Of a stretch of 47,334 nt of DNA, positions 18,949 through 43,813 are shown piece after piece; the first letter of the stretch is position 1; every line of letters starts with the position of its first letter. The position numbers were made by a program, and so were the translations under genes. The stretch spans positions 1 through 47,334 of the forward strand of contig DASVBS010000067.1 in assembly GCA_036375715.1 (NCBI GenBank). Direction: 5' to 3'. A model generated the notes under the pieces. It worked only from the letters and a program-made list of their open reading frames with translations. It ran no database searches and was not told the origin of the DNA. Source of the stretch: Longimicrobiaceae bacterium (GTDB lineage: Bacteria > Gemmatimonadota > Gemmatimonadetes > Longimicrobiales > Longimicrobiaceae).

Positions 18949-20450
18949 GCACGCCAGCGGTTCGCTTCGAGGGCATCACCAAACGTTTCCCCGGCGTACA
19001 GGCGCTCACCGACGTCTCCTTCGAGATCTCGGTGGGCTCCTGCCACGCCCTGTGTGGCGAGAACGGCGCCGGCAAGAGCACGCTCGGCAAGCTGCTCGCG
19101 GGGATCCACAAGCCGGACGAGGGGAGACTCTACGTCCAGGGGAAGGAGGTGCGGTTCGAGAGTCCCCGGGAGGCCCTGGCGGCGGGGATCGGGATGGTGC
19201 ACCAGGAGCTCGCCTTCTGCGAAAACCTGTCGGTCGCGGAGAACCTCTGCCTCGGCTCGCTGCCGACCCGGCGTGGCCTCCTCTCGCGGTCGGAGATGGC
19301 GAAGCGGGCAAAGGCCATGCTGGCGCGCATCGGTACGCGGCTGGACGTCACGCGTCCGGTCGGCGAGCTGACGGTGGGCCAGCAGCAGATGGTGCAGATC
19401 GCCGCCGCCGTGGGCAGCGGCGCGCGCATCCTGGTCTTCGACGAGCCGACCAGCAGCCTCAGCCAGCACGACGTCGAGCACCTCTGCGCCCTCATCGACA
19501 GGCTTTGCGCCGACGGGGTTACCTGCATCTACGTCTCGCACCGGATGCCGGAGATCTTCCGCCTCTGCGACACCGTGACCGTGCTGCGCGACGGGCGGCA
19601 CGTGGCCACGAAACCGATCAGAGAGGTGGATGAGGCGCAGCTGGTCGAGCTGATGATTGGCAGGCGCCTGGCCGAGTACTTCCCCGGACACGCACACGCG
19701 TCGGACGGGCCGGTGCGCCTGCGCGTCGAAGGCCTCTCCAGCCCAGGCAAGTTCCAGGACATCTCATTCACTGTGCGCGCCGGCGAGGTGGTGGGGCTGG
19801 CGGGCCTGGTCGGCGCCGGCCGGTCCGAGGTCGCCACCGCGATCTTCGGGTTGGACTCGGAGGCGCGGGGACAGCTATGGATGGACGGGGAGCCGATGCC
19901 GATGGCCGGGGCGAAGAACGCGATGCGCCGGGGGATCGGGCTGGTTCCGGAGGATCGAAAGCGCGCGGGGTTGGTGCTGGGGATGAGCTGCCTGCACAAC
20001 TTCTCCCTGCCCAACCTGGAGCGGCTATCGCGCTTCTCCTGGATCCGGCGGAGAGCCGAGCGCTCCGAGGCGGAGGCGCACTTCGGGCGCCTGCGAGTGC
20101 GCACCCCGGATGCTGACTTCGTCATCGCGGGGCTATCCGGAGGGAACCAACAGAAGATCGTGCTGGCGAAGTGGCTCGCAGCCAACGTAAAGCTGCTCAT
20201 CCTGGACGAGCCGACCCGAGGCGTGGACGTCGGCGCCAAGGCCGAGATCCACGGCATCATAGATCAGCTCGCCTCTCAGGGAACGGCGGTGCTGCTCATC
20301 TCCAGCGAGCTCCCCGAGCTCATCAACCTCTCCAGCCGCATTCTCGTGCTGCGCGAGGGCCGGTTGGTGGGGGAGGTACCCCGCGAGCGCGCCACGCAAC
20401 CCACCCTGCTGCGCCTCATGGCCGGGCTCGAGGTGGGGGCGGCCGCTTGA
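18945..20450 (+). CDS. Sugar ABC transporter ATPase with two nucleotide-binding domains (RbsA/MglA-like)
   Basis: I place the start at GTG 18945, which overlaps the binding-protein stop as GTGA; the protein then opens with STPAVRFEGITKRFPG, the normal N-terminus, and is 501 residues, the usual length. The first domain has Walker A GENGAGKST (38-46), signature LTVGQQQ and Walker B ILVFDEPTSS. The second has a degenerate Walker A (GLVGAGRSE), signature LSGGNQQK and Walker B LLILDEPTRGVD, the asymmetry expected in this family. It powers the importer of the operon. The GTGA overlap implies translational coupling. No kinase, isomerase or repressor gene for the imported sugar is in the operon. Confidence 0.94.
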   Translation: MSTPAVRFEGITKRFPGVQALTDVSFEISVGSCHALCGENGAGKSTLGKLLAGIHKPDEGRLYVQGKEVRFESPREALAAGIGMVHQELAFCENLSVAENLCLGSLPTRRGLLSRSEMAKRAKAMLARIGTRLDVTRPVGELTVGQQQMVQIAAAVGSGARILVFDEPTSSLSQHDVEHLCALIDRLCADGVTCIYVSHRMPEIFRLCDTVTVLRDGRHVATKPIREVDEAQLVELMIGRRLAEYFPGHAHASDGPVRLRVEGLSSPGKFQDISFTVRAGEVVGLAGLVGAGRSEVATAIFGLDSEARGQLWMDGEPMPMAGAKNAMRRGIGLVPEDRKRAGLVLGMSCLHNFSLPNLERLSRFSWIRRRAERSEAEAHFGRLRVRTPDADFVIAGLSGGNQQKIVLAKWLAANVKLLILDEPTRGVDVGAKAEIHGIIDQLASQGTAVLLISSELPELINLSSRILVLREGRLVGEVPRERATQPTLLRLMAGLEVGAAA

Positions 20451-20535
20451 CGGCACCCGATTGCGCACCGCGACATGTCGGGGCGTCTTCTGACGCGATC
20501 CTCCTTCCTCGCGGCGCGATCTCCCGCCCCGAGAT

Positions 20536-22443
20536 CTACCAGGCGATCCCGTAATCCTCCCCGTGGTTGCTGGAGCCACCCCACATGGTTCCGTGCTCCC
20601 GATCGAAGAAGATGGCGTTGATCGGCCCCGAGGTCCGCTCTTCGAAAGTGAGCGTGTACCCCATTTTCCGTAGCTCGTTGCGGACCCAGGGCGGCGTGTC
20701 CTCCTGCAGGAGGAGGCGGCCCGGCTGGATCTCGTGCTGGCCGAAGGAGCCGCGCATCTGGAAGGAGTTGACGTTGGGCGCCTCGACCGCCTCCTGCACG
20801 GTCATCCCGAACTCGACCACGTTCAGGAAGAACTGCAACAGGTTCTGGTCCTGGCTGTCGCCGCCCTGCACGGCGAAGGAGAGGAAGGGCTTGCCGTCCT
20901 TCAGCGCCATGCTCGGCGTCAGCGTCACCCGCGGCTGTTTGCCGGGCGCGACCACGTTGAACGGGTTCTCGGCCGGGTCGGTGACGAAGCTCTGCATGCG
21001 CTGGCTGAGCCCGATCCCCGTCCGGCCGGCGATGACCGCCGGGATCCACCCACCCGACGGGGTGATGGAGACGACCCATCCCTCCTCGTCGGCCGCTTGT
21101 ACGCTGGTGGTGCCGGCGTAGAAGGCCTCCTCGGTGGTCATTCCCCGCAGTGAGGTGGTGGCGGTGTCGGCGTCCTGCTTCTGGTCGTGCGCCGGCATGG
21201 GGGTGGCCCCGGCCGCTCCGGGAGGCGGGATGATCGCCGTCTCGTGCCAGCGCTCCAGCAGGTCGGTATAGGGGTTGGTGTCACCCTGGTAGGGGTAAGG
21301 GTCGCCCGGACCGGCCCCCGGGTCGTTGCGCACCCAGTCGATCTGCTGCGCCCTCGCGCGGGCGTACTCCTTCGAGAGCAGGCCCTCGATCGGTTCCTCC
21401 GGGGGCACGGCGGGGTCGCCGTAGTAGAAGTCGCGGTCGGCGTAGGCGAGGTTCATCGCCTGGTACAGCGCGTGGATGTAGCGCGCGCTGTTGTAGCCCA
21501 TCGATTTCAGATCGAAGTTCTCCAGGATGTTCAGTGCCTGGAGCATGACCGGCCCCTGCGTCCAGTGGGTGAGCTTGTAGACCTCGATCCCTTTATAGGT
21601 GGACGAGACCGGCTTCTCTAGCTTGACCTCCCAGTTCGCAAGGTCTTCCAGGGTGATGAGGCCGCCCTCCTCCTGCACGCCGCGCACGAACTCGCGCGCG
21701 ATGTCACCGCGGTAGAAGCGATCGTAGGCCGCCATGATCGCTTCCTCGCGGGAGCGTCCCTGCCGCAGCGCCTCGCGCTCCGCCTCCACCAGCTTCATGA
21801 GCGTGGCGGCGAGATCGGGCTGTCGGAAGATCTCGCCGGGGTAGGGGGCCTCCCGCTCCTCACCCAGGTGGGGCAACATGACCGCGGGGGAGTAGCGCCA
21901 CTCCTTGATCCACTCCTTCTCCCGCTCGATGGAGTTGGCGGTCTCGGCGTCGATGGGGTAGCCGTTCGCGAGCTGGATGGCGGGAGCGAGGACCTGCTCC
22001 AGCGACATGGTGCCGAAGCGGGCCAGCATCACCATCAACCCGCCCGGCGTGCCCGGGGTGGTCGCCGCGAGGGGGCCGTACTCCGGGAGATAGCGCATGT
22101 CCCGGGCGAGGAAGAATTCCGGGGTCGCCCCGGTGGGCGCCACGCCCATCGCGTTGATCCCGATGACCTCGTTGGTGTGGGGGTTGAAGATGAGAGCCTG
22201 CGTCTCCCCGCCCCAGCTCAGCACGTCCCACATCGTAGCCGTGGCCGCCAGCATGGCCGCCGCCGCGTCGACCGCGTTGCCCCCTTGCTGGAAGATCATC
22301 GCTCCCGCGGTCGCCGCCAGCGGCTTGCCGGTGATGGCGACCCAGTGTCTCCCATGCAGGGGTGGTTTCTGCGTCTGCTGCCCCGGGAGCTTGGTGGGAA
22401 GAGTGAGGATCAGCAGGGCGGCGACCAGACCGGCTCGGAGCAT
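20536..22443 (-). CDS. Gamma-glutamyltransferase family protein, exported
   Basis: The start at 22443 follows GGGAG and yields a 635-residue protein with a signal peptide ending near residue 22. It is an Ntn-hydrolase of the gamma-glutamyltranspeptidase family. NAVDAAAAMLAATAT (56-70) is the large-subunit signature, and AGTTSVQAADEEG (443-455) is the self-cleavage site, with T445 the expected new N-terminal nucleophile. SGGW (463-466) sits where the oxyanion-hole segment is expected. The enzyme would process gamma-glutamyl compounds such as glutathione in the periplasm. The linker before the cleavage site (about 375-440) is long and low in complexity. It is convergent with the ABC ATPase gene, 86 bp away. 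Confidence 0.92.
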   Translation of the reverse strand: MLRAGLVAALLILTLPTKLPGQQTQKPPLHGRHWVAITGKPLAATAGAMIFQQGGNAVDAAAAMLAATATMWDVLSWGGETQALIFNPHTNEVIGINAMGVAPTGATPEFFLARDMRYLPEYGPLAATTPGTPGGLMVMLARFGTMSLEQVLAPAIQLANGYPIDAETANSIEREKEWIKEWRYSPAVMLPHLGEEREAPYPGEIFRQPDLAATLMKLVEAEREALRQGRSREEAIMAAYDRFYRGDIAREFVRGVQEEGGLITLEDLANWEVKLEKPVSSTYKGIEVYKLTHWTQGPVMLQALNILENFDLKSMGYNSARYIHALYQAMNLAYADRDFYYGDPAVPPEEPIEGLLSKEYARARAQQIDWVRNDPGAGPGDPYPYQGDTNPYTDLLERWHETAIIPPPGAAGATPMPAHDQKQDADTATTSLRGMTTEEAFYAGTTSVQAADEEGWVVSITPSGGWIPAVIAGRTGIGLSQRMQSFVTDPAENPFNVVAPGKQPRVTLTPSMALKDGKPFLSFAVQGGDSQDQNLLQFFLNVVEFGMTVQEAVEAPNVNSFQMRGSFGQHEIQPGRLLLQEDTPPWVRNELRKMGYTLTFEERTSGPINAIFFDREHGTMWGGSSNHGEDYGIAW

Positions 22444-29984: not shown

Positions 29985-31157
29985 TCACCCGCCACGAGTT
30001 TCTCCCAGCGCCCGCACCCGCGCGTCCAGCTCCTCCATCCGGAGGTGGACGGTGACGATGTACGGCTCTTCGCCCTCGGTCCAGTGGCCGTAGGTAGTGG
30101 CGACGATGGTTCCGTCGGGTAGCAGCTCCAGCGCCGGATAGGTCGAATCCCACTGGCGCTTGTTGTCCATGATGCGCACGCGATACTGCCCCTCGCGCCC
30201 CTCGAGCAGGTCCTCGTAGGTCCCCACCCAGGCGAGCCAGTCGCCTTTGGTCGGGGACTCGTGGCCCATATCGCGGAAGGAGATGAAGAGCCGCCCGTCG
30301 GGCGTGTAGATGGCCTGGTGACGGTCGCCGGTGAGCGAGCCGGGCAGCTGCACGGGCCTGCTCCAGGTCTCCCCTTCGTCGTTCGAGAAGGTGATGAAGG
30401 AGTTGAAGGTGCGGCTGTTCTCGCGCAGCAGCATCGCCAGCTGCTTCCCATCCGGAGAGCGGATGAGTCCTGGCTCGCAGAGGTCGGCGAGAGAGGCGGT
30501 CACCACCACCTCCGGCTCTCCCCAGGTGAGCCCCCCGTCTGTCGAGCGCGTCTTGTAGACCACGAATTGCCCGGCCTTGCCCGAGTTCCTGAAGAAGCGA
30601 CCGTCGTCGTGGAAGAAAGCCAGATAGTCGCCGCTACTGGTGCGCACCAGGTCGGCCATGGCCACGATCCCTCCGAAGTCGCCGATCGGCTCCAGCGGTG
30701 TCCACGTCTGTCCGTCATCTTCCGAGTAGGACATACGGATCGGATAGAGCCCCGAGAACATGATCAGCCGACGCGTGCCGTCCGGCGCCACCACGCGGTA
30801 GATCGTCGGCGTCTCCTGCGAGGTGGCCCAGTTCTCCGGGACGGGCAGCCGCTCGCTCCAGCTGTAGCCTCCGTCGGTGCTGCGCTTCAGCACGACCGGC
30901 CCCTTTCCATGCCCCTTCGGATAAACCGCCAGCATCGTCCGCCCGTCCTCCAGCAGCACCGTGGTGGGATGACCGAGGTACTGCCCCGGCTCCCGGTCCA
31001 CGATCACCTGCAGCTCCGTTTCCCCCGCCAGGTCGATCTGCGGAATGCTGAACCCCCGCGGCGGATCTGCGCGGTCGTACGGAGGAGAGGGGAAGGAATC
31101 CGCGCCGCCTGCGCAGGCGGAGAGCAAGAAGGCGAAGAGAACGAGTCTGGCAATCAT
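29985..31157 (-). CDS. Sialidase-like BNR-repeat lipoprotein
   Basis: The 390-residue product is a six-bladed-propeller sialidase-like protein with a lipoprotein signal (VLFAFLLSAC, Cys 15). Four Asp boxes are visible: STDGGYSW (93-100), SEDDGQTW (145-152), STDGGLTW (205-212) and SNDEGETW (258-265). Several Arg residues placed like the substrate triad occur (for example in LLRENSRT and FISFRD), but I do not see a canonical F/YRIP motif; the nearest is GFSIP (35-39). It probably releases terminal sialic acid from host or dietary glycans at the cell surface. It is the last gene on the strand carrying the sialic-acid operon, separated from the epimerase by repeat D, so it may be transcribed separately. 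Confidence 0.78.
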   Translation of the reverse strand: MIARLVLFAFLLSACAGGADSFPSPPYDRADPPRGFSIPQIDLAGETELQVIVDREPGQYLGHPTTVLLEDGRTMLAVYPKGHGKGPVVLKRSTDGGYSWSERLPVPENWATSQETPTIYRVVAPDGTRRLIMFSGLYPIRMSYSEDDGQTWTPLEPIGDFGGIVAMADLVRTSSGDYLAFFHDDGRFFRNSGKAGQFVVYKTRSTDGGLTWGEPEVVVTASLADLCEPGLIRSPDGKQLAMLLRENSRTFNSFITFSNDEGETWSRPVQLPGSLTGDRHQAIYTPDGRLFISFRDMGHESPTKGDWLAWVGTYEDLLEGREGQYRVRIMDNKRQWDSTYPALELLPDGTIVATTYGHWTEGEEPYIVTVHLRMEELDARVRALGETRGG

Positions 31158-31432: not shown

Positions 31433-32647
31433 TTACTGACCAGCAAGCGCTTTCCAGCAGTAGAGCAGCATGCGCGGAAGGTGGAACGGTCCCTTCCACA
31501 CATTCCCTTTGAGGCGCACGGAGAGGCTGCCGTCACGGTGGAGGTAGCCGTACCATTCGCCGTATTCGGGGTCGGGAAAGTGGGCGAAGCTCCAGTCGTG
31601 GACCAGGCGATGCCAGCGGGCGTAGCGCTCCTCGCCGGTGAGCTGATAGGCGAGGAGGGTGGCGATGGTCGCTTCGCAGTGGGGCCACCAGAACTTCATA
31701 TCGTGCCAGTATTCCTGTACGGGTAGGCCTCGCAGGTCACGGTAGTAGAACAGCCCACCATACTCGTCGTCCCAGCCGCGCTCCCACATCCAGTCGAGCA
31801 TCTGCGTGCCGAGGCGGATCAGCTCCGGATCGCGACCGCGCAGCTTCGCCTCGTGCAGGATGAACCACGCCGCTTCGATGGCGTGTCCGGGGTTCAGGGT
31901 GCGGCCGTCGAAGTGGTCGATCAACTCACCCGTCGGGCCCACGCTCTCCATCACCACCTCGAGCTCCGGCTTCACGTGGTAACGCCGGATCTCCTCGATG
32001 CAGCGGTCGATCTCTGCCTCGCAGCGAGGGTCTCCGATGGTCTCCCGGATCACCTGGGCCAGGTTGATGGTGATCATCGGCACGCCGATCCCGCGCATCG
32101 GGCGCACACGAGGATCGACCTTGGGCTCCAGTAACCCGGGCGTGGTAGTGTAGCGCAGGAAGCTGCCGAAGATCTCCCGCGCCCGTGACGCGGCGGCTTC
32201 GTCCCCGGCGGCCCGGGCGTACGCCGCGAAGGCCGCGGCGGCGAAGGCCTCGGAGAACACGTAGCGACGCTTGCGCAGCGGACGTCCCTCGCGGGTCACC
32301 AGGAAGAACATCTGCCCGTCGTCGTCGAAGCCGCGCGCCTCGAGGAAGTCGAGCGTGCGCCGGGCCTGCACCAGCCACTCCTCCCGCGGCTCCACCTCCG
32401 AGTAGAGCGTCGCCATCATCCAGGCGAATCGGCCCTGCTGCCAGATCCCTTTGTCGGTGTCGATCACGGTGCCGTCCCTATCGAGCGCGGTCATGATCCC
32501 CCCGTGCTCGTAATCGACGCCGTGGCGAAGCCAGAAGGGGATGCAGTCCGTGAGCAGGGTGTCCCGATAGAGATCCGCGAGCATCGCTCGCTCTTTGGCG
32601 GATAGCCCGCCGCCATCCGAACCTACGGCCGCCGCATTCGTGCTCAC
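31433..32647 (-). CDS. N-acylglucosamine 2-epimerase (AGE / RenBP type)
   Basis: Translation starts at GTG 32647, which overlaps the lyase stop codon as GTGA; the protein is then 404 residues, the usual length. It is an (alpha/alpha)6-barrel AGE-family epimerase. DKGIWQQGRFAWM (66-78), NPGHAIEAAW and WWPHCEA are the family motifs holding the catalytic histidines and the substrate-binding Arg. In sialic-acid pathways of Bacteroidota this enzyme turns ManNAc into GlcNAc, replacing the NanE/NanK steps of enterobacteria. Its tight coupling to the lyase gene, which makes ManNAc, supports that role here. A cellobiose- or mannose-epimerase activity is the main alternative. Confidence 0.88.
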   Translation of the reverse strand: MSTNAAAVGSDGGGLSAKERAMLADLYRDTLLTDCIPFWLRHGVDYEHGGIMTALDRDGTVIDTDKGIWQQGRFAWMMATLYSEVEPREEWLVQARRTLDFLEARGFDDDGQMFFLVTREGRPLRKRRYVFSEAFAAAAFAAYARAAGDEAAASRAREIFGSFLRYTTTPGLLEPKVDPRVRPMRGIGVPMITINLAQVIRETIGDPRCEAEIDRCIEEIRRYHVKPELEVVMESVGPTGELIDHFDGRTLNPGHAIEAAWFILHEAKLRGRDPELIRLGTQMLDWMWERGWDDEYGGLFYYRDLRGLPVQEYWHDMKFWWPHCEATIATLLAYQLTGEERYARWHRLVHDWSFAHFPDPEYGEWYGYLHRDGSLSVRLKGNVWKGPFHLPRMLLYCWKALAGQ

Positions 32648-33570
32648 CGCAAGCGCCCCCAGTCGAAGAAGCCGATCTCCTCCAGCTCCGCGCGCATCCG
32701 GGCGACGGCGTCGGCGGAGAGCGGGTCCTGCGGGAGGCGGCTCGGGCCGCAGTCGAGCCCGATCAGCGACATCACCGCCTTGAGGCCCGAGCGGCCACAA
32801 TGGCGGTAGATCACGCGCACCATCTCGCCCGAACGGGCCTGGAGCTGCGCCGCCTCGGACAGCTCGCCGCGCTGGACGTGCTCGATCATCCGCAGGTAGA
32901 GCGGCGCGGCGAAGCAATAGGTGGAGCCCACGGCGCCGCGAACCCCGAAGGCCAGCGCCCCGAGCAGCATCTCGTCCACCCCGAAGACCACGTCATGCGC
33001 GCCGTGGTCGAATCGCTGCGCCACCTGCAGGTGGTGCAGGCGGGTGTCCGAGAACTTGATCCCGGCCATGTTGGGGATCCGCTCCGCCGCCAGCGAGAAG
33101 AGCTCCTCGAGGTCCGGGTCGACACCGGTGAGCGACGGGATGTGGTAGTAGTAGAAGGGCAGCTCTGGCGCCCCCCGGGCGATCTCCGCCAGCGAGTCGA
33201 CCAGGGCCCGCGTACTGCCGGGTTTGAAGTAGGAGGGCGGCATGGCCGAGATCGCTTCGGCGCCGATCTCCTGCGCGTGCTCGGCGAAGCCGCGGGCTTC
33301 TGCGAGGCTGTTGTGCCCCACCTGGACGACGGTGCGCAGACGCCCCTTTGCCGCCTGCACGTAGGCCGCGGTTACCTCCCGCCGCTCAGCGGCGGAGAGC
33401 GAAGGTCCCTCCCCGGTGCTCCCCACGATGTACAGTCCGCTCACGCCGTCCGCCTCGAGCTGATCCACCAGGGCGGGAACGAGGTCGAGGTTCAGAGACC
33501 CGTCGGGGTGGAGTGGCGTGAAGGTGGCCGCGATCAGGCCGCGGAGGCGTCGTTCGGGGGGGAGGTTCAT
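32644..33570 (-). CDS. nanA: N-acetylneuraminate lyase (DapA/NanA family)
   Basis: This 308-residue class I aldolase has GSTGEG (50-55), which binds the carboxylate of pyruvate, the catalytic tyrosine Y142 in YYYHIPSLTG, and the Schiff-base lysine K172 in GIKFSD. YHIPxLTG is the form found in sialic-acid lyases rather than in dihydrodipicolinate synthases, and the neighbours agree. It cleaves N-acetylneuraminate into N-acetylmannosamine and pyruvate in the cytoplasm. I use the ATG at 33570; a TTG at 33585 is possible. The gene is 48 bp after the transporter and overlaps the epimerase by 4 bp, so the three are one transcription unit. Confidence 0.9.
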   Translation of the reverse strand: MNLPPERRLRGLIAATFTPLHPDGSLNLDLVPALVDQLEADGVSGLYIVGSTGEGPSLSAAERREVTAAYVQAAKGRLRTVVQVGHNSLAEARGFAEHAQEIGAEAISAMPPSYFKPGSTRALVDSLAEIARGAPELPFYYYHIPSLTGVDPDLEELFSLAAERIPNMAGIKFSDTRLHHLQVAQRFDHGAHDVVFGVDEMLLGALAFGVRGAVGSTYCFAAPLYLRMIEHVQRGELSEAAQLQARSGEMVRVIYRHCGRSGLKAVMSLIGLDCGPSRLPQDPLSADAVARMRAELEEIGFFDWGRLR

Positions 33571-33618
33571 GTTCCCGGCAAGCAATCGTGACTGTGATCC
33601 TGAAGGTGTCTGCGCCGG

Positions 33619-36258
33619 TCAGGCGGTGTAAATTCCTGCGGTCTGCGGCCGCCCGGTCTCTAACGGATCGCCCGCTGCTCTGCGCAGCGTGTAAATGGTC
33701 AGCCCGTCGAGCGAGCGGGAAGGGCCGCCGGTGAGCACGCTCACTACGTACCCGACCACGACGCACACGATGATTCCCACGGCCGCGTAAAGGAAGAAGT
33801 GGACGGGAGTGTAAGTCCTCACCAGGTAAAGCACGACTGCGCTGGTGAGGGCGCCGACCAGGGCACCGGTCCCGTTCGCTCGCCGGGTGAAGATCCCCAG
33901 GACGAAGAGACCCGCAAGCCCTCCTCCGAAGAGGCCAAGCATCTCCAGGAACACGTCCCAGAGCGAGCCCACCTGCCAGGTGGCGAGCACTACTGCGCCT
34001 CCCGTGGCGATGACCCCCAGCAGCACCGACAACGAGCGCGCCAGCCATAGGCGCCGTGTGGCAGAGGATTCCGGCACGAAGCGGCGGTAGAAGTCGGTCA
34101 CGATCGCCGAGCTGACGCTGTTCACGCTGCTGCTCAGCGTGGACATGGCCGCCGCGAAGACGCCGGCGATCAGCAGGCCGGAGATTCCGGCCGGCAGCTC
34201 CTGCACGATGTAGTGCGGGAAGATGGTGTCGGTCGCCAGCGGAGGTGCCAGCCGCTCGGGGTGCTGCTTGTAGAAGACGTACAGCGCCGTGCCCAGGCCG
34301 AAGAAGATGAACGCCGCCGGGATCGTCAGCAGGGCGTTGGTCCAGATCGAGCGCGCCGCCCCGGCCTCGTCGCGCGTGGTGAGGTATCGCTGCACTACCG
34401 CCTGGTCCGCCGTGTAGGGGACCAGATTGCCCAGCAGGTTGCCGACGAGCACCACCCAGACCGCGGTGGTGGTGTAATCCCAACTCCAGGTGAAGGTGTG
34501 GAACTTACCGTTCTGAGCCGCCGTGGAGATCAGGCCGCCCAACCCTCCGTCCACGGCGGTGATCATCAGCACCAGGCTGAGGAGCGCACCCCCTACCAGC
34601 ACGACCACCTGCACCACGTCGGTCCATACCACCGCCTCGATCCCGCCCGCGGCGGTGTAGAGGGTGGTCACCAGCCCCATGAGCAGGATGGCCACGTAGA
34701 GGTCGAACCCGGTCGCCGCCGCGAGCGCCAGCGCCGGGAGCAGGATGACGATTGCCATCCGCCCGAGCTGGAGAAGGATGAAGGACAGGCTTCCGAACAG
34801 TCGCACGGGCAGGCTGAAGCGTCGCTCGAGGTACTCGTAGGCTGTCTTCACCCGCAGCCGGCGAAAGAAGGGCAGGTAGAGGAAGACGACGATCGGCGCG
34901 ACCAGCACGATGCTCGCCTGGCCCAGGATGTAGACCCAGTCGGTGTCGTACGCCTTGGCCGGGATGGCCATGAAGGTGATGGCGCTCAGCTGGGTGCCGA
35001 AGATGCTGAGTCCGGCCGCCCACGGCGGGATGCCTCTGCTCAGGAAGAAGTCGTCATCGCTCTTGCCGCGGCCGGCGAAGTAGAAGCCCATCCCCGCCAG
35101 CCCCACGAAGTATCCCGCCAGCACGAGATAGTCGAGCCCCCCGAAGCCAGCCTCTCGAGTGTCCGCAGGCCGCTGCGTAGCGGCGAGGATCACCGGCGTG
35201 CGCACGCCCGGCCGGATCTCGCCGCTGGGAATGACGATGCGTCCTCCCCACGCCACGGTCGGGGTATTGACGTGGGCCGCGGGCAGGCTGTCGCCCCGCA
35301 CCCAGGTGTTGGTGATCGTGTGATAGAGCAGCGCCTCCCGGCGAAATCCCGGGTGACGGTCACCCAACTCCTCCGTGCCACCGACCAGCGACCCATCGTT
35401 ACCGCCGAAAATCATCAAGTGCGAAGGTCCCAGGGGAATCGCGGGAGAGGGTGCGGCGGCCACCGGCCAGGGCAGGTCCGCCAGACGCTCCCACCCCTGG
35501 CCGGGCCGGTACCGATAGGCATCCGTGAGGAAATTGTACGAGATCCCGCCGGCGGCGTCGGAATGCGGCTCCACTCCGCTGAAGAGGTAGAAAGCGCCGT
35601 TCAGCGAAGCAGCCACCGCGTCGTACCGCGCCGGCCCCGGCCAGGGCTCCAGCCGGCGCCAACCCGCCGAGGGGTTGGTCAGGTCCAGGCTCCAGAAGGT
35701 GCGCTGCGCCACCGAGTCGCCAGGGGCACGCACGCCACCCGCGATGTACAGCACCTCTCCCACCCGCGCACCGCTCGCGAAGGCGACCGGCTCGGGGAGC
35801 GGCGGCAGACGCTCCTCCGCCACCACCCGCCCGTTCACCCACCTGAGCGAGAGAACATCGGCGAAGTGCTCCTCGGCGTTCCCGCCTCCCAGGCAGAGGA
35901 CCTCGTCCCCCACCGTGAAGGGTACCGCATACCCACGCGGCTGCGGCAGGGAGTCGCTCGTGTGCCACCTCAATTCCCCTCTGTCGGCGGAGGAGAGCGC
36001 CCAGGTGGCACGCGTCCACACCTTCGTGCCGCCGCTGAGCAGGGGCACGGGGAAGTGCGCTCCCCCCGCGACGACCAGGGCGCCGTTGGAGACTCCGGCG
36101 CACGGTCCGGCCACCCCGAGCGGTTCAGGTAGCTCCGCCAGCTGCTCCCAGCTGTACCACCCCCTGCTGGCGGGAGCGTCCTGGGCGCGCGCGTGATCGA
36201 CCGTGCTGCCGAGGCCGATCATCAACGCCATTACGGGGGCGGTGAAGAGAGGACGCAC
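33619..36258 (-). CDS. Kelch mutarotase-sodium/solute symporter fusion for sialic acid
   Basis: The 879-residue product joins two proteins. Residues 1-26 are a signal peptide. Residues about 35-365 form a kelch propeller with repeated glycine pairs (LVVAGGAHF, LCLGGGN, LYIAGG, MIFGGNDGS) and IPSGEIRPGVRTP (343-355), very like the end of NanM/YjhT N-acetylneuraminate mutarotases. Residues about 374-860 are a sodium:solute symporter with GLSIFGTQLSAITFMAIPA (416-434) and about 13 membrane segments. The kelch part would stay in the periplasm and convert alpha to beta sialic acid right at the importer mouth. The start is GTG, 4 bp after the susD stop. Kelch-SSS fusions exist in other phyla; here the operon supports sialic acid as substrate. 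Confidence 0.85.
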   Translation of the reverse strand: MRPLFTAPVMALMIGLGSTVDHARAQDAPASRGWYSWEQLAELPEPLGVAGPCAGVSNGALVVAGGAHFPVPLLSGGTKVWTRATWALSSADRGELRWHTSDSLPQPRGYAVPFTVGDEVLCLGGGNAEEHFADVLSLRWVNGRVVAEERLPPLPEPVAFASGARVGEVLYIAGGVRAPGDSVAQRTFWSLDLTNPSAGWRRLEPWPGPARYDAVAASLNGAFYLFSGVEPHSDAAGGISYNFLTDAYRYRPGQGWERLADLPWPVAAAPSPAIPLGPSHLMIFGGNDGSLVGGTEELGDRHPGFRREALLYHTITNTWVRGDSLPAAHVNTPTVAWGGRIVIPSGEIRPGVRTPVILAATQRPADTREAGFGGLDYLVLAGYFVGLAGMGFYFAGRGKSDDDFFLSRGIPPWAAGLSIFGTQLSAITFMAIPAKAYDTDWVYILGQASIVLVAPIVVFLYLPFFRRLRVKTAYEYLERRFSLPVRLFGSLSFILLQLGRMAIVILLPALALAAATGFDLYVAILLMGLVTTLYTAAGGIEAVVWTDVVQVVVLVGGALLSLVLMITAVDGGLGGLISTAAQNGKFHTFTWSWDYTTTAVWVVLVGNLLGNLVPYTADQAVVQRYLTTRDEAGAARSIWTNALLTIPAAFIFFGLGTALYVFYKQHPERLAPPLATDTIFPHYIVQELPAGISGLLIAGVFAAAMSTLSSSVNSVSSAIVTDFYRRFVPESSATRRLWLARSLSVLLGVIATGGAVVLATWQVGSLWDVFLEMLGLFGGGLAGLFVLGIFTRRANGTGALVGALTSAVVLYLVRTYTPVHFFLYAAVGIIVCVVVGYVVSVLTGGPSRSLDGLTIYTLRRAAGDPLETGRPQTAGIYTA

Positions 36259-36262
36259 GGGC

Positions 36263-37738
36263 TCAGTATCCGGGGTTCTGTTCCAGGCTCGAGTTGAGGC
36301 TCAACGTGCTCTGCGAGATCGGCCAGAGCAACAGGTGATCCTGGCCGGCCCGGTTCTGAAGGCTCGGGACGAGCTCGAACGCCTTGCCGAAGCGTACCAG
36401 ATCCCACCAGCGCTTCCCCTCGAAGGCGAGCTCCAGCAGCCGCTCCCGTAGGATGGCTGCGTCGTTCTCCTCCTGACTGCCGCTGGTGAACCGGTGCTGC
36501 TGGAAGGCGTCGCCGTACGCCCGCTCCCGGACCATGTTGATCTCCGTGGACGGATCCTGGCCCAGCCCGTTCCTCGCCTCGGCGATCATCAGCAGCACGT
36601 CGGCGTAGCGGTACAGGATGACATCGTCGAGGAAGCGCCGGGCGCCCGCCTCCACGAAGCCCCTGAACTTGGTGACCGCCGAGGCATAGAAGGTCGAGTC
36701 TCCGTTTTCGTCGAGCGTGTACAGCTCGGCGAAGGTGGCGTCCTTGCGCGCGTCATCCTCACTGAACTGATCGCGCAGTACCTGGGAGGGAGCCCACCGG
36801 TTCAGCCCGCCTCCCACGCCAATGAGCTCCCTGGATTCGGGATCGACGTTGACGGGGATCTGGTCGTCGCGCAGGTACATGGAGTTGGCATACATCTCCG
36901 CCGACTCCAGATCCTGGAAGCGGACCGCCATCAGGATCTCCGCGTTGCCCTTGTTCTCGTAGCGGAAGATGTCGTCGAAGTCCTCGAGCAGTGCCACGTC
37001 GGCGTCCTGGACCTGCTGCAGGGCCTGCAACGCGGTGTTCAGGTCCGCGGCACCCCCACCCCCCCGCTTCGCCGTCCACAGGTAGACGTCTCCCTTGAGC
37101 GCGTTCACCGCCGCGCGCGACCACTGGCAGCGGCAGTCAGTGAATCCGTCGTCGGGGAAGAGCGCCAGCGCCTGCTCGAGGTCCGCCTTGATGAGGTCGA
37201 AGACCTGGCTCACCTCCGCGCGCTCGCGGAAGGCGCTCTGCTGGTCGTATCCCTCCGTGGGCTCCGTGACGATCGGAACGCCTCCCCAGGTGCGGGCCAT
37301 GATGAAGTACACGTACGCCCGCATCGCATAGGCTTCCGCCAGGATCGCGTTCCTCTCGGCCTCGCTGCCGAACTCGACCTCGGGTACGTATTTGAGGATG
37401 AGGTTGGCGTCGTGGACGACGGTATAGAGTCGCAGCCAGTCGGGGCCGGCGCTGGTCGCGTCGAGGGTGTTCAGGAAGTAGCGCTCGCGCCCCTCGGAGG
37501 CCTGCAGCCCGTAGCTCAGCTCCTCGCTCCGCGCGCCTCCCCAGATGTAGAGGTTCTGGCTCGCCTGGTCGCGGAAGCGGGTGTACATGCCGTACAGCGC
37601 GCCCCGCGCGTCGTCGGAGGTCTTCCAGAATGAGTTGACGGTGATGATGCTGGTGGGATCCACGGCCAGTTCGTCCGTGCATCCCGCCGTGAGCAGAAGC
37701 CCGCAAGCCGCGAGTGCGGCAGTGATTGCGCGTTTCAT
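36263..37738 (-). CDS. SusD/RagB-family outer-membrane lipoprotein
   Basis: Starting at ATG 37738 behind CGGAGCC, this 491-residue protein has a lipoprotein signal (LLLTAGC, Cys 20) and the helical SusD fold. Typical features are VDPTSIITVNSFWKTSDDA near the N-terminus, AEAYAMRAYVYFIMARTWGG with TPR-like helices, and RRFLDDVILYRYADVLLM, followed by RERLLELAFEGKRWWDLVRF and a C-terminal LEQNPGY. It forms the lid over the SusC barrel and binds glycan or free sugar at the cell surface. Its position directly after susC and before the sialic-acid transporter makes it the likely equivalent of NanU. Sugar specificity is inferred from the operon, not from residues. Confidence 0.92.
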   Translation of the reverse strand: MKRAITAALAACGLLLTAGCTDELAVDPTSIITVNSFWKTSDDARGALYGMYTRFRDQASQNLYIWGGARSEELSYGLQASEGRERYFLNTLDATSAGPDWLRLYTVVHDANLILKYVPEVEFGSEAERNAILAEAYAMRAYVYFIMARTWGGVPIVTEPTEGYDQQSAFRERAEVSQVFDLIKADLEQALALFPDDGFTDCRCQWSRAAVNALKGDVYLWTAKRGGGGAADLNTALQALQQVQDADVALLEDFDDIFRYENKGNAEILMAVRFQDLESAEMYANSMYLRDDQIPVNVDPESRELIGVGGGLNRWAPSQVLRDQFSEDDARKDATFAELYTLDENGDSTFYASAVTKFRGFVEAGARRFLDDVILYRYADVLLMIAEARNGLGQDPSTEINMVRERAYGDAFQQHRFTSGSQEENDAAILRERLLELAFEGKRWWDLVRFGKAFELVPSLQNRAGQDHLLLWPISQSTLSLNSSLEQNPGY

Positions 37739-37776
37739 CGGATGGCTCCGTTCAGAAGCGGCTGGTAGACGGTGCA

Positions 37777-40700
37777 TCAGAACCCGAGGTCGAGACCGAT
37801 GGCGAGATTACGCGGCAGCGGATAGCGGCCGCTGTCGGTCCCGCCGTCCTCGGGCAGCAGCCCCTTGTAGGCGGTGAAGTAGTGCAGGTTGCTACCGGCC
37901 AGGTAGATGCGCGCGTAGTCGACGCCCAGTCGCTCGAACCAGCTCGCCGGGGGACGATAGCTGAGGGTCACCTCACGCAGGGCGAGGTAATCGCCCTTCT
38001 CGTAGTAGTAGGAGGTCCCTCGATTGTCGCGGAAGATATTGTTCTGCGCGAGCTGGTCGGCCCAGTAGTAGCGTGGGATGTCCGTTTTGTCGCCCGGCTT
38101 CTGCCAGGAGCGGAGCACCTCCTTGGACATGCCGATGTCGCCCTGGGTCTGGCCGTTGAGCGCCAGGAGGGTCTGGTTGAAGATCGTGTGGCCGGTGGCG
38201 AAGTCCATCCGCACCAGCAGGTCCAGGTCCCCGTAGCCGAGTTGGGTGCTGAACCCGCCCGTCCATTTCGGGAAGATGTTGCCCACGTAGACCTGGTCGC
38301 GGGTGTCGATGATGCCGTTCTGATCGAGGTCCGCGAAGATCGCGTCGCCGGCTCGCTTGTGCTTGTCCTCGCGGGGGACGAGCATGTCCAGCGGCCCGGC
38401 GGCGGCCTCCTCGTCGGTCGAGTAGACGCCGAGCTGCTTGTAGATGTACAGGTCTCCCAGCCGCCCGCCCTCCTGCAGGCCACCTCTCCACACGTAGTCG
38501 CCCACGTCCGGGTCGTAGACCAGGATCCCACCGATCCGGTTGCGCTCGTTCCCGTTGTCCGGCAGGCGCAGGATCTTGTTCTGATTGGTCGCGGCGTTGA
38601 AGGCGACCGACCAGCGTAGCGGCGCACCGGGCGGCAACACGTCCACGCTCGCCTCCACCTCGTAGCCGCGATTCTCCAGTGACCCCAGGTTGGTGAGGAT
38701 GCTGGAGAAGCCGGTGGACTGCGGCAGCGCCAGCGAGGTCAGCAGGTCGTCGGTGACGCGCCGGTAGTAGTCGAAGAGGACGGTGGCGCGGTCGTCGAAG
38801 AGCCCCAAGTCGAAGCCGACGTCGAAGGTCCGTGAGCGCTCCCAGCGCAGCTCCGGGTTGGCCATCCGGTTGTTCAGGATGGCGGCGTTGCCCGCGTACC
38901 TGGAGCCGACGTCGTACTCGCCCTGCGCGTGGAAATCGGAGAGGCCGCTGATGTTGCCGCTCGTGCCGTAGCTGGCCCGCAGCTTCAGCGTGGAGAAGGC
39001 GGGCGGCAGGTTCGCCCAGAAGCTCTCCTGGTGCAGGTTCCAGCCGGCCGAGATTCCGGGGAAGAATCCCCAGCGGTTGCTCTCTCCCAGGTTGGACGCA
39101 CCGTCGTAGCGGGCGGTGAGGGAGAGCAGGTACTTCTGCGCAAAGTCGTAGTTGAGACGTCCGAAGAAGCCGATGATGACCTGGTCCGTCGCCGTGCTGG
39201 AGACGGAGGTCGGCTCGGAGGAGGCGTTCAGCGTCGGGATCAGGTCGGTGGAGGCGCCGCGGCCGGCGGCGGAGAGGCCATACAGCTTGCGATCGTAGTA
39301 AGAGGCGCCCCCCTTGATCTCGACATTATGACTGTCGCCGAACAGGTGATCGAAGGTGAGGACCGCGTCTGCCTGCCGCTGCCAGTGCGTGCTGTGCGAC
39401 GCCGAGGCATCGCGCGAGTCGACGAACTGCGTGGGCGTGTTGAAGTAGGACATCTGGAAGCGGTTGTCGATGCCCTTGGTGGTGTAGAGCGCCACGGAGG
39501 GCTCGAGCGAGAGGCCCGGTACGATGTCCCAGATGCCCCGCAGACCCAGGCTGAAGCGGTCGAAGCTGTTCTTCGCCTTGGTCCGGCCCAGGTGGTACAG
39601 CGGGTTGCCGATGCTACGGTTCTGACCCGGCGCGAGGGTGCCGTCCTCATAGTACAGCTTGGCGGTGGGCGGCAGCGCCAGCGCGCGCTGGAAGATCTCG
39701 AAGTCGCTGAAGACGCGGTTATCACTCGAGTTGCTGAACCCCAGGTCGCCGTAGAGGGTGAGGTTGTCACGGGCGCGGACCCGCCCGCCCATGTCGAGGG
39801 TGAGGCGCTCGTACCCGGTGGTGATCGCCACCCCTTCATCCTTCAGGTAACCCACCCCGAAGTTGTATCCCACGCTCTCGGTCCCGCCGGCGACGGAGAG
39901 GTAGTGGTTCTGGGTCAGGGCGTCCTGGAAGAGCACGTCCTGCCAGTCCGTCTCCTTGAAGATGATGGTCTTCGAGGGGTCGAGCGGGTCGGGCATGCTC
40001 TCCCACCCCTCGTTCAGCTTGTGCTCGTTCTCGGGGGTGAGATACTGGGGAGTGAAGGCGGTGCGGTTACTCAGGTCGTTGCCGACGCCGGAGCCCGTAG
40101 GCAGGTCGAGCCGCGAGCGCCGCGAGGGATCCAGCTCCGCGGTCGCCGCGATGCCCAGGCGGTTGAAGTAGATGTAGTCGCGGGCGGAGGCGAGCGGCAG
40201 ACGCTTCGCCAGTCCCGAGAACTGGAAGCTGGTCGAGTAGTTGATGCTCGGCTCGCCCTGGCCCTGCTTGGTCGTGACGATCACCACGCCGTTGGAGGCG
40301 CGGGCGCCGTAGATGGCGGTCGCCGCGGCGTCCTTGAGCACCTGGACGCTCTCGATGTCCAGCGGATTGAGGTCGTTGATGTTCGGCCGGATGATCCCGT
40401 CGACGATGTAGAGGGGAGTCGATCCGTTGGGGTTGTTGATGGAGGTGCCGCCGCGCAGGACGATGCGGGGTGCCTCTCCCGGCTGCCCGGTGGTGGACTG
40501 CACACGCAGCCCAGGGATCGTGCCCTTCAGTGCCGACGCGGGTGTGGCGTAAGGGATGTTCCGCAGCGTGGTGGTATCCAGCTTGGAGACCGAGGTGGTC
40601 AAGGTCGCGCGGCTCTGTTCACCGTAACCGACCACCACCAGTTCCTCGAGCTGGGTGACGTGGGGTGCCAGCACCACCTGCAGCATGGTGCGGCCTTCCA

Positions 40701-40959
40701 GGGCGACCGACTGCTCCTGGTAGCCGACGCGACGGAAGACCAGCGTGGCGTCGGGCGCCGTAGTGAGGCTGAAACGGCCCAGACTGTCAGTCAGAGCGGT
40801 GGTGGCGGTTCCCTGAACCGTGATGGTGACCTCGGCAAGGGGCTCGCCGGTCGCGGCTGACGTTACCGTTCCGGCGACGTTCTGCTGTGCCCGCGCCGGC
40901 AGCACGAGGGTGAGGAGCAGTACCGGCACCGGGCACGTCGCACGAAGCAGAGCTCTCAT
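37777..40959 (-). CDS. SusC/RagA-family TonB-dependent receptor
   Basis: The 1060-residue product has a signal peptide to about residue 25 (ARAQQ), a carboxypeptidase-regulatory-like domain (about 27-100), a plug with the SusC signature SVQVLKDAAATAIYGARASN (about 203-222), and a beta barrel ending in the aromatic terminus GLDLGF. GGAGG precedes the ATG. It imports a sugar over the outer membrane together with SusD, using TonB. As the first gene of the sialic-acid operon it is the likely NanO equivalent. A palindromic site, ATGT-N3-ACAT, lies 73 bp upstream and is shared with the neighbouring regulator promoter. Confidence 0.93.
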   Translation of the reverse strand: MRALLRATCPVPVLLLTLVLPARAQQNVAGTVTSAATGEPLAEVTITVQGTATTALTDSLGRFSLTTAPDATLVFRRVGYQEQSVALEGRTMLQVVLAPHVTQLEELVVVGYGEQSRATLTTSVSKLDTTTLRNIPYATPASALKGTIPGLRVQSTTGQPGEAPRIVLRGGTSINNPNGSTPLYIVDGIIRPNINDLNPLDIESVQVLKDAAATAIYGARASNGVVIVTTKQGQGEPSINYSTSFQFSGLAKRLPLASARDYIYFNRLGIAATAELDPSRRSRLDLPTGSGVGNDLSNRTAFTPQYLTPENEHKLNEGWESMPDPLDPSKTIIFKETDWQDVLFQDALTQNHYLSVAGGTESVGYNFGVGYLKDEGVAITTGYERLTLDMGGRVRARDNLTLYGDLGFSNSSDNRVFSDFEIFQRALALPPTAKLYYEDGTLAPGQNRSIGNPLYHLGRTKAKNSFDRFSLGLRGIWDIVPGLSLEPSVALYTTKGIDNRFQMSYFNTPTQFVDSRDASASHSTHWQRQADAVLTFDHLFGDSHNVEIKGGASYYDRKLYGLSAAGRGASTDLIPTLNASSEPTSVSSTATDQVIIGFFGRLNYDFAQKYLLSLTARYDGASNLGESNRWGFFPGISAGWNLHQESFWANLPPAFSTLKLRASYGTSGNISGLSDFHAQGEYDVGSRYAGNAAILNNRMANPELRWERSRTFDVGFDLGLFDDRATVLFDYYRRVTDDLLTSLALPQSTGFSSILTNLGSLENRGYEVEASVDVLPPGAPLRWSVAFNAATNQNKILRLPDNGNERNRIGGILVYDPDVGDYVWRGGLQEGGRLGDLYIYKQLGVYSTDEEAAAGPLDMLVPREDKHKRAGDAIFADLDQNGIIDTRDQVYVGNIFPKWTGGFSTQLGYGDLDLLVRMDFATGHTIFNQTLLALNGQTQGDIGMSKEVLRSWQKPGDKTDIPRYYWADQLAQNNIFRDNRGTSYYYEKGDYLALREVTLSYRPPASWFERLGVDYARIYLAGSNLHYFTAYKGLLPEDGGTDSGRYPLPRNLAIGLDLGF

Positions 40960-41083: not shown

Positions 41084-41785
41084 TCAGAGCACCCGCCGAA
41101 AGTGGTTCTCCAGGTGTATCCGCATTCCCTCGCGGAAGCGCTCGGGGGAGCCGCTGCGAAGGATCTCCACCAGCTCGTGGTGGGTGACGAAAGGGGCGTC
41201 CGCCGGGCCGGGTTGCTCCAGCATGCCGCTGCGATGGACATAGCCGAAGACTGGCAGCAGCAGCGATTGAAAGCGTTGCAGTGTGCGGTTGCCTGAGATC
41301 TCGTAGAGCTTACCGTGGAAGCGGACCTCGAACTCCTGGTCGAAGACCGCGCTCGAGCCCTCCTTTTCCTCCGCGACGATGTTTTCGAGCTCCTCCAGCT
41401 GCGCGGGGGTCATGCGCGCGAACAGGAAGTCGGCCATGCCGACCTCGAGCACCAGGCGGATCTCGAAGATGTCGCGCAGCGTGTCCTCGTCGAGGATCTG
41501 CGGGTGGAGCATGCGCTCCAGCGGCGTGAGCACGTCCGGATGGGTGATGACGCTGCCCTTGCGCTTCACCGATTCGACCAGTCCTATGGCGCGGAGCCGC
41601 GTGAGCGCTTCGCGCACCACCGTGCGGCTGACGCCGAAGGCCTCGGCGAGCTCGACCTCCTTGGGCAGCGGATCCCCCGGCTTGAGGTCGTTGCTGGCGA
41701 GGAGCTTCAGGAGCGCCAGCTCCACCTCGTCCACCCGCGAGAGGTTGGCGAGCGGCTTGATGCGATCGCGAAGGGAAGGCGGCAT
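41084..41785 (-). CDS. FadR-type GntR transcriptional regulator, candidate sialic-acid repressor
   Basis: The 233-residue protein has an N-terminal winged helix-turn-helix (about 18-80; ELAEAFGVSRTVVREALTRL, 45-64) and a C-terminal all-helical FCD ligand-binding domain (about 105-228) with D149, H157, H203 and H224 placed to bind a metal. This is the architecture of NanR and other FadR-family sugar-acid regulators. It sits directly upstream of susC in the same direction and is flanked on both sides by the inverted repeat ATGT-N3-ACAT, so it probably represses itself, the sialic-acid operon and the divergent dehydrogenase. The effector is presumably sialic acid or ManNAc. The ATG has no clear ribosome-binding site. 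Confidence 0.9.
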   Translation of the reverse strand: MPPSLRDRIKPLANLSRVDEVELALLKLLASNDLKPGDPLPKEVELAEAFGVSRTVVREALTRLRAIGLVESVKRKGSVITHPDVLTPLERMLHPQILDEDTLRDIFEIRLVLEVGMADFLFARMTPAQLEELENIVAEEKEGSSAVFDQEFEVRFHGKLYEISGNRTLQRFQSLLLPVFGYVHRSGMLEQPGPADAPFVTHHELVEILRSGSPERFREGMRIHLENHFRRVL

Positions 41786-41819
41786 GCGGCCAGACGAATG
41801 GTGCTCAGAAAGGAGTGCG

Positions 41820-41834
41820 TTATGTACTACATAA
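41820..41834. promoter_or_regulatory. Candidate GntR operator overlapping a start codon
   Basis: TTATGTACTACATAA is a perfect 7-1-7 palindrome with the core ATGT-ACT-ACAT, matching the susC site, and both are followed on the plus strand by AATACGC. It lies 35 bp upstream of the gntR ATG, and its fourth quarter aside, the left half contains the ATG (41822-41824) of the divergent PQQ dehydrogenase. Binding would therefore cover the regulator promoter and the dehydrogenase initiation region. Confidence 0.7.
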
Positions 41835-43813
41835 TACGCTGCCTCGCTGGCGTCAAGGCTGTCGTACGGTTGGGCGCCCTCGTAGCGTGCCTCGGTGCGG
41901 TAGTGGCCTGCCCACTCCGGGCGCAGGAGATCCCCTGGGTGGCCAATGGAGGTGACGTACAGGGCACGCGCTTTTCACGCGCCGCGGTCATCAGCCCTGA
42001 GAACGTCTCCCGTCTGGAGCACGCCTGGACCTATCACACCGGCGAGCTCGATCCGCGGTATGAGACGGCCAAGCCGGCCGCCCTGGAGGCGACGCCCCTG
42101 GTCAGCGAGGGCGTCATGTACATCGGGACGCCGCTGGGGCGGGTGATCGCGCTCGACGCGGCCACCGGAGAAGAGCTCTGGGTCTTCGATCCGGAGATCC
42201 GACGCGACATCGAATACGGAGATTTCGCCAGCCGCGGCGTGTCGTTGTGGGTCGATCCGCAGGCGGTGCCAGATGCGGCCTGCCGCCGCACCATCTTCAT
42301 GGCCAACGCCCAGTCCCAGCTCTGGGCGCTGGACGCCGCTACTGGCGAACCGTGCGAACGATTTGGAGAGGGCGGGATGGTGGACCTGCTGCGCGGCCTG
42401 CGCATCCCTCCCAAGGAGCCGCACGCCTACACGGTCACCTCGCCGCCCGCGGTGGTGCACGGTCTGGTGATCACCGGGTCTTCGGTGGGTGACAATACCT
42501 GGCCGGACCTGCCCAGCGGCGAGGTGCGCGCTTTCGATGCGCGCACCGGGGAGCTGCGCTGGAGCTGGGATCCGATCCCGCAGGACCCTGCCGACCCGGC
42601 CTACGACGAGTGGGGAGGGGCCATGGCGCACCGCACCGGCGCGGCCAATGCCTGGTCGATTCTCGTTGCCGATCCAGAGCGGGACCTGGTCTTCATTCCC
42701 ACCGGCAGCGCCGCGCCCGACTATTACGGTGCGCTCAGGCTCGGCGACAACCGCTACGCCAACTCCGTGGTTGCGCTGCGAGCCAGCACCGGGGAGCTCG
42801 TCTGGTCCTTCCAGACCGTGCACCACGATCTCTGGGACTACGACAACGCGGCGCCGCCGGCGCTCGTCACCGTGCGGCGTGACGGTGCGGAAATCCCGGC
42901 GGTCGCCGCGGCGACCAAGACGGGAATGCTCTTCATCCTGCACCGCGAGACGGGCGAGCCGCTCTACCCGGTGGAGGAGCGTCCCGTCCCCGCCAGCCGG
43001 ATCCCGGGGGAGCAGGCCTCGACGACGCAGCCGTTCACTACGGGGATCGCGCCGCTGAGTCCCCACTCGCTGACGCTGCAGGAGGTATGGGGTGCGAACG
43101 AGGGGGACCGCGATGCGTGCCGCGCCATGATCGAGCCCCTGCGTAACGAGGGCATCTTCACCCCGCCGGATCTGCAGGGAACGCTGGTGATCCCGTCCAA
43201 CGTGGGTGGCGCGCACTGGGGAGGACTGGCCTGGCATCCGGAGCGGCGGATCGCCGTCGTTCCGGTCAACCGGGTCGCCGCCGAGGTGCAGCTCCTGCCG
43301 CGGGATTCGGTGGACCTCTCGAACGCGGTGGCGGAGAGCGACCGGCTGGGCCTCGGCTACGAGTACAATCCAATGCACGGGACGCCGTACGTGATGCGGC
43401 GCCGGATCCTGCTCTCACCCGGCGGGCTCCCCTGCTCGCCTCCGCCCTTCGGGACGCTGGTGGCGATCGACCTCGATACCGGGGAGCGGGTCTGGGAGGT
43501 GCCGCTCGGCTCGGTCGAGGCGCTGGTGCCTGAAGGAACCGAGCTGCCGCCGACCTGGGGCTCGGTGGGGCTGGGCGGGCCGATCGTGACAGCGACGGGG
43601 GTCGTATTCATCGGCGCGTCGCTCGATCGGTCGTTGAAGGCGTATGACCTGGGAACGGGTGAGCTATTGTGGCGCGGCGAGCTCCCCTCGAGCGCGCGCT
43701 CCACGCCGATGACCTATCAGCTCGACGGAACGCAGTATGTGGCGATTGCGGCGGGAGGGGGTGAGGTGTTTGGAGAGGGGGACGCGATCGTGGTGTTCAA
43801 GCTCAGTCCGTGA
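41822..43813 (+). CDS. PQQ-dependent dehydrogenase, periplasmic (quinoprotein)
   Basis: The start at ATG 41822 has AAAGGAG about 7 bp upstream, and gives a 663-residue protein with a signal peptide ending near residue 35 (PLRAQ). The rest is the eight-bladed PQQ propeller: repeated blade motifs ALDAATGEELWVFD, AFDARTGELRWSWD, ALRASTGELVWSF, AIDLDTGERVWEV and AYDLGTGELLWRG. HHDLWDYD lies where membrane glucose/quinate-type dehydrogenases place active-site residues. No N-terminal membrane segments and no cytochrome c domain are present. It would oxidise a sugar or polyol in the periplasm. Its first codons are part of the GntR operator, tying it to the sialic-acid regulon. Electron acceptor and substrate are unknown. 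Confidence 0.9.
   Translation: MYYIIRCLAGVKAVVRLGALVACLGAVVACPLRAQEIPWVANGGDVQGTRFSRAAVISPENVSRLEHAWTYHTGELDPRYETAKPAALEATPLVSEGVMYIGTPLGRVIALDAATGEELWVFDPEIRRDIEYGDFASRGVSLWVDPQAVPDAACRRTIFMANAQSQLWALDAATGEPCERFGEGGMVDLLRGLRIPPKEPHAYTVTSPPAVVHGLVITGSSVGDNTWPDLPSGEVRAFDARTGELRWSWDPIPQDPADPAYDEWGGAMAHRTGAANAWSILVADPERDLVFIPTGSAAPDYYGALRLGDNRYANSVVALRASTGELVWSFQTVHHDLWDYDNAAPPALVTVRRDGAEIPAVAAATKTGMLFILHRETGEPLYPVEERPVPASRIPGEQASTTQPFTTGIAPLSPHSLTLQEVWGANEGDRDACRAMIEPLRNEGIFTPPDLQGTLVIPSNVGGAHWGGLAWHPERRIAVVPVNRVAAEVQLLPRDSVDLSNAVAESDRLGLGYEYNPMHGTPYVMRRRILLSPGGLPCSPPPFGTLVAIDLDTGERVWEVPLGSVEALVPEGTELPPTWGSVGLGGPIVTATGVVFIGASLDRSLKAYDLGTGELLWRGELPSSARSTPMTYQLDGTQYVAIAAGGGEVFGEGDAIVVFKLSP

Follow-up and report, generated by a model that had tools for sequence, protein, structure and literature searches.

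The window analysed here (a whole stretch of 47,334 nucleotides from a Longimicrobiaceae bacterium) encodes an 879-residue protein that we interpret, with a probability of about 70%, as a Na+-driven sialic acid importer with an N-terminal periplasmic sialic acid mutarotase. The fusion itself, its fold, the putative catalytic and ligand residues, the gene context, and the association of a short motif with fusion are all read from sequence and together carry this interpretation.

Architecture of the Fusion Gene

The open reading frame (ORF) lies on the minus strand, with a GTG start at 36258 and a stop codon ending at 33619 (879 codons); 4 bp separate its start from the stop codon of a SusD-like gene. 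The gene and its parts are:

33619-36258, minus strand: fusion gene, 879 aa (signal peptide, permuted NanM kelch propeller, and SiaT-like Na+/solute symporter)
36184-36258, minus strand: probable Sec signal peptide, residues 1-25 (ARA/Q), judged by eye from the sequence
35173-36165, minus strand: kelch propeller, residues 32-362, a circular permutant of NanM (profile alignment; Foldseek and VIA kelch matches)
35140-35172, minus strand: linker, residues 363-373 (about 11 residues; AlphaFold secondary structure)
33709-35139, minus strand: SSS/SiaT-like symporter, residues 374-850 (Pfam, NCBIfam, PDB, Foldseek/VIA)

The putative signal peptide, as read by eye, is MRPLFTAPVMALMIGLGSTVDHARA, cut before Q. 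Pfam assigns SSF to residues 407-804 (E 4e-45) and NANM (PF24996) at 109 bits, above the gathering score (cut-off 45), with the NANM and kelch matches falling between residues 34 and 326; NCBIfam identifies TIGR00813 (sss; 241 bits, cut-off 184) and, at residues 47-288, TIGR03548 (mutarot_permut; 120.5 bits, under the curated cut-off of 243.2). These domain searches agree with an earlier note on this DNA, which described a single 879-residue protein with a signal peptide, a NanM-like kelch domain, and a symporter; its coordinates were exact, although it left out that the gene is on the minus strand. A frameshift or an assembly join behind the fusion was considered and ruled out, the kelch-SSS order being intact in many genomes. 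Because tens of independent genomes carry this same order, chance and assembly error are excluded, and the ORF is confirmed as a genuine, conserved mutarotase-importer fusion.

The earlier note had asked for a structure prediction of the whole chain; the AlphaFold model, made with 37 homologues, comprises a kelch domain and a symporter (pLDDT 87.3, pTM 0.87), with the last kelch strand at residues 357-362, the first transmembrane helix starting at residue 374, and pLDDT below 50 for residues 1-31. Foldseek matches the symporter half to 5NVA (TM 0.93 by target length), and Foldseek/VIA match the N-terminal half to kelch propellers. NanM (2UVK) is not among the Foldseek/VIA matches listed, which show other kelch propellers; because the fold is permuted, this is evidence in neither direction. 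The N-terminus of SiaT faces the periplasm (PMC5931594). This orientation, together with the signal peptide of the fusion, places the kelch domain in the periplasm, and the side of the membrane can thus be deduced, as had been claimed.

A Circularly Permuted NanM-Type Propeller

A PDB sequence search matches the N-terminal half to Escherichia coli YjhT/NanM (2uvk, E 9e-10) in permuted order; the match of fusion residues 36-128 to NanM 230-327 points to circular permutation. When a profile built from 41 fused kelch domains was aligned to the doubled NanM sequence, a single 312-column block was obtained (probability 99.8), running over NanM 226-349 and then 1-223, with the permutation cut of the fused propeller at about NanM mature residue 225.

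The 2008 study of YjhT by Severi reportedly mutagenised Glu209 and Arg215, which were implicated in catalysis; in the E. coli nanM gene, fetched for this comparison, these mature residues are E228 and R234 of the precursor. Loss of the NanM active-site residues had been raised as a possible argument against the mutarotase assignment, and in the profile alignment both residues are present: SGEIRPGVRT contains E347 (Glu209) and R353 (Arg215), an E/R pair kept in 37 of the 41 fusions.

35200-35220, minus strand: putative mutarotase catalytic segment E347-R353 (EIRPGVR), matching NanM Glu209/Arg215

Owing to the circular permutation, this segment lies where the propeller ends, with the linker following after about 10 residues. 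The fused domain is the sole NanM-type domain of the genome. NanM/YjhT of E. coli (2UVK) is likewise a periplasmic six-bladed kelch propeller with a GExxPGxR segment that includes the Glu and the Arg, but it is a soluble, unpermuted dimer, whereas the fusion kelch has a permuted strand order and is attached to a transporter. The cyclically permuted mutarotases of TIGR03548 have both the permutation and the catalytic segment in common with the fusion kelch; the fusion scores under the cut-off of that family, whose unfused members are without the HT[IV]T motif described below. Mutarotase activity on Neu5Ac is the function that these likenesses suggest for the fused kelch.

The Symporter Half

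In the PDB sequence search the C-terminal half matches SiaT of Proteus mirabilis (5nv9) over fusion residues 371-848 (E 5e-118), with 41% identity over 470 residues. The SiaT ligand residues (PMC5931594) were mapped onto 41 fused transporters. S60 and R135 correspond to S425 and R500, each present in 41/41; the other ligands T63, F78, Q82, and N247 correspond to T428, Y443, Q447, and N611. The residues of Na2 (S706 and T707, SiaT S342/S343; A703) and of Na3 (D547, S709, and S710; SiaT D182/S345/S346) are also present.

34759-34761, minus strand: R500 codon, corresponding to SiaT Arg135 (Neu5Ac carboxylate; mapping, PMC5931594)

Thus SiaT (SSS family, ST5; 5NV9/5NVA) shares with the fusion its fold, the carboxylate Arg, Ser60, Thr63, and the Na2/Na3 residues; it differs in having no kelch domain and in its Thr58, Glu402, and Gly313, which are Gln, Ser, and Asp in the fusion. 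On these residues, the symporter half would transport Neu5Ac.

In SiaT, Thr58 contacts the anomeric hydroxyl, and the T58A mutation doubled uptake; according to the same paper it is the least conserved of the ligand residues and is not family-defining (PMC5931594). The SiaT contact residue is not matched in the fusion, which has Gln423 at this position. All four unfused SiaTs have Thr there; of the 59 fused rows, 28 have Met, 16 Gln, and 8 Gly, and a few have another residue. The premise of the earlier note that importers face the beta anomer therefore stands in part: SiaT was crystallised with beta-Neu5Ac (PMC5931594), but Thr58 is not conserved in the fused transporters, so the argument that the importer needs this anomer may not carry over to them.

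At nine symporter positions, 85% or more of the fused rows agree and all four unfused SiaTs differ from them. The outer gate of SiaT includes Thr312 and Glu402 (PMC5931594), and substitutions are found at and next to it:

34228-34230, minus strand: D677 codon (SiaT 313), adjoining outer-gate Thr312; Asp in 97% of fused rows
33964-33966, minus strand: S765 codon (SiaT outer-gate Glu402); Ser in 97% of fused rows and 0/4 unfused

Co-adaptation of positions 313 and 402 with the periplasmic domain is only suggestive, four unfused sequences having been compared.

A Sialic Acid Gene Cluster

The genes around the fusion are:

41084-41785, minus strand: GntR/FCD regulator; best NCBIfam match NanR
37777-40959, minus strand: SusC/RagA TonB-dependent receptor (TIGR04056, 775 bits)
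36263-37777, minus strand: SusD-like, NanU-type outer-membrane lipoprotein (NF033072 NanU, 329 bits, cut-off 425)
32644-33585, minus strand: N-acetylneuraminate lyase, NanA type, DHDPS family (best PDB matches N-acetylneuraminate lyases, E 2e-59)
31433-32590, minus strand: N-acylglucosamine 2-epimerase (AGE), start approximate (8bry, E 4e-162)
29985-31157, minus strand: BNR-repeat sialidase-like protein (PF13088; PDB sialidases match weakly, E 1e-10 at best)

With a GntR regulator, SusC, SusD, lyase, AGE, and BNR protein, the predicted gene content is that of a complete cluster for scavenging sialic acid, which supports the sialic-acid role proposed earlier. An Rfam search of the window returned no RNA family, and a promoter scan of the fusion cluster found none. 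Elsewhere in the window are a GH20 beta-N-acetylhexosaminidase (14776-16578), about 13 kb from the cluster and possibly part of glycan use, and a long ORF without a Pfam match (41975-43378), overlapped on the other strand by an 832-codon ORF (41315-43813); a protein of the YhcH anomerase family is encoded elsewhere in the same genome.

It is known that alpha-Neu5Ac inhibits sialidases, and relief of this inhibition has been proposed as a role of NanM (PMC8141875); with a sialidase-like gene in the cluster, the mutarotase might serve mainly to relieve sialidase product inhibition by removing alpha-Neu5Ac. We consider this very unlikely, as it leaves unexplained a fusion to the transporter and not to the sialidase.

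Distribution of the Kelch-SSS Arrangement

The kelch-SSS arrangement is widespread and found in many bacterial phyla. That the fusion might be peculiar to the genome of the window was rejected on the evidence of 53 related loci, which come from Planctomycetota, Verrucomicrobiota, Hydrogenedentota, Acidobacteriota, Bacteroidota, and Rhodothermota, plus Pseudoalteromonas. Every SSS relative whose identity exceeds about 42% and whose N-terminus is intact has a full or partial kelch domain; for the standalone SSS proteins of the window's phylum, identity is about 36% or lower. Among 298 genomes sampled in that phylum, the only full-length match is in the fusion's own genome (none in the other 297); the gene is therefore rare there and may have been transferred into the phylum. 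We found no description of a kelch-SSS fusion in a literature search that was incomplete, so an earlier mention is possible. In the tree the four unfused SiaTs are nested among the fused rows (96/83), so classical SiaT may have arisen from fused ancestors by loss of the kelch domain; the AU test does not reject the alternative (p 0.14).

A lyase, epimerase, or sialidase relative was found in the flanking DNA, often a short stretch, of 27 of the 53 loci, and several relatives adjoin genes for an FAD oxidoreductase, a sulfatase, or an aldehyde dehydrogenase. Because about half of the loci show no such relative in the DNA covered, the family may not be wholly sialic-acid specific. A substrate other than Neu5Ac (another acidic sugar or a keto acid) would be in keeping with these neighbours and with the variation of ligand positions T58, Q82, N247, and Q250 across the family; for the protein described here it seems quite improbable, given the invariance of R500 and S425 and a window that contains the lyase, AGE, NanU-like SusD, and sialidase-like genes.

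Several other arrangements were encountered. Three loci (L107, L110, and L117) have a permuted mutarotase at the C-terminal end of ORFs longer than 820 aa, with a different N-terminal region of about 490 residues. The 2.1-Mb genome of Verrucomicrobia Opi.OSU.00C (G311) has seven matches to the mutarotase profile, and several of these lie in ORFs of SSS-fusion length; one match (L080) is split into two ORFs. A symporter on a plasmid of Sphingopyxis sp. FD7 (L129:949-3336) has a degenerate kelch-like N-terminus (YNTITDAW) and lies in a non-sialic context.

A Hairpin Associated with Fusion

The last full blade of the propeller contains a short motif at the turn between its outer strands:

35302-35325, minus strand: YHTITNTW hairpin, residues 312-319, fusion-associated motif

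The usual kelch reading at this position is YDPxTxxW (FDPSTQQW in NanM); YHTITNTW is close to invariant among the fused proteins. In one tree set, 46/50 fused propellers have its HT[IV]T core, against 0/18 unfused ones (Fisher 6e-13). The kelch tree contains at least four fused/unfused changes on well-supported branches; corrected for ancestry, the association comes down to four independent contrasts (about three agree, none opposes), too few for significance, so ancestry is not fully excluded as its source. One Bacteroidaceae-type sample contains both kinds: its fused proteins keep variants such as YHTITNTW, YHTVTDTW, and YQTITDSW, and its unfused rows vary freely. These comparisons tie the HT[IV]T hairpin, a new observation here, to fusion.

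The fusion might do no more than fix stoichiometry and location, with no channelling, in which case a soluble periplasmic NanM would be equally good; NanM of E. coli does work as a separate soluble protein (PMC10017367). We doubt this, in view of a near-fixed 8-residue motif confined to fused forms and of the full or partial kelch that every SSS relative of more than about 42% identity carries when its N-terminus is intact.

All 18 unfused propellers of this sample and 42 of the 50 fused ones retain an intact E/R pair, a comparison in which the unfused set, gathered mostly by mutarotase profile, may favour intact copies; 7/50 fused propellers (including L012) have lost the pair, and one more has an unreadable residue. 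The two nearest symporter relatives of the fusion have both lost E/R and both keep the motif: L012, which adjoins a lyase, and L035, which adjoins a sialidase. Neither genome yielded another NanM-type protein, and loss without a detected replacement weakens any claim that mutarotation is essential. In Opitutae, SSS transporters L051-L057 (except L054) have a kelch remnant of about 160 residues that keeps YHTITNTW, lacks E/R, and is modelled as a folded domain (pLDDT 82.5, pTM 0.83); one Opitutae MAG with an eroded fused kelch also encodes a separate kelch in which E/R is present and the motif absent.

A comparable pair is found on a plasmid of Pseudoalteromonas sp. HL-AS2 (L127), where a degenerate kelch-SSS gene (10897-13482) and a separate kelch gene (20257-21417) belong to one sialidase/lyase cluster. 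The fused protein (WP_309217267, annotated "sodium/solute symporter") has the architecture described here and adjoins sialidase and lyase genes; unlike the fusion in the window, its kelch has lost E/R, and the separate E/R kelch protein of the region carries the catalytic segment GEVKAVQRS.

Because the motif persists where the propeller is eroded or E/R is lost, two separable roles are likely, catalysis by E/R and docking on the transporter by the motif. The same variants would also suit a kelch whose main part is to dock, to act as a lid, or to capture substrate for the transporter, with mutarotation secondary or vestigial: HT[IV]T tracks fusion and not catalysis, L012, L035, and the folded Opitutae remnants keep it without E/R, and positions 402 and 313, at or beside the SiaT outer gate, carry fusion-associated substitutions. 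We think such a role rather unlikely, however, since E/R is kept in most fused propellers and in the fusion here, and since a separate E/R kelch accompanies the degenerate fused one in Pseudoalteromonas and in one Opitutae genome.

Proposed Mechanism

In the importer-mutarotase reading that we prefer, sialylated material would enter through the SusC/SusD pair, and the sialidase would release alpha-Neu5Ac, which the kelch domain would equilibrate to the beta form via E347/R353. The symporter half would take up the sugar with Na+, and NanA lyase and AGE would then split and epimerise the imported sialic acid. The YHTITNTW hairpin probably serves to dock the kelch domain onto the symporter at its periplasmic face; this would keep the enzyme beside the outer gate, and the tether may bring a kinetic benefit. 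A more specific arrangement, which we regard as unlikely, has the propeller forming part of the outer gate, docked by the hairpin and passing the beta anomer straight into the vestibule, so that the protein would be an enzyme-gated secondary transporter; the anomer-sensing residue of the symporter would then be relaxed because the attached enzyme selects the anomer.

In E. coli, loss of the soluble NanM has a mild effect, and for this reason the help that periplasmic mutarotases give to sialic acid importers is unsettled. With both domains in one protein, several phyla represented, natural variants, and a separable motif, the kelch-SSS proteins make the question of mutarotase and importer directly testable, and a mutarotase fusion would exemplify an enzyme tethered to a LeuT-fold transporter.
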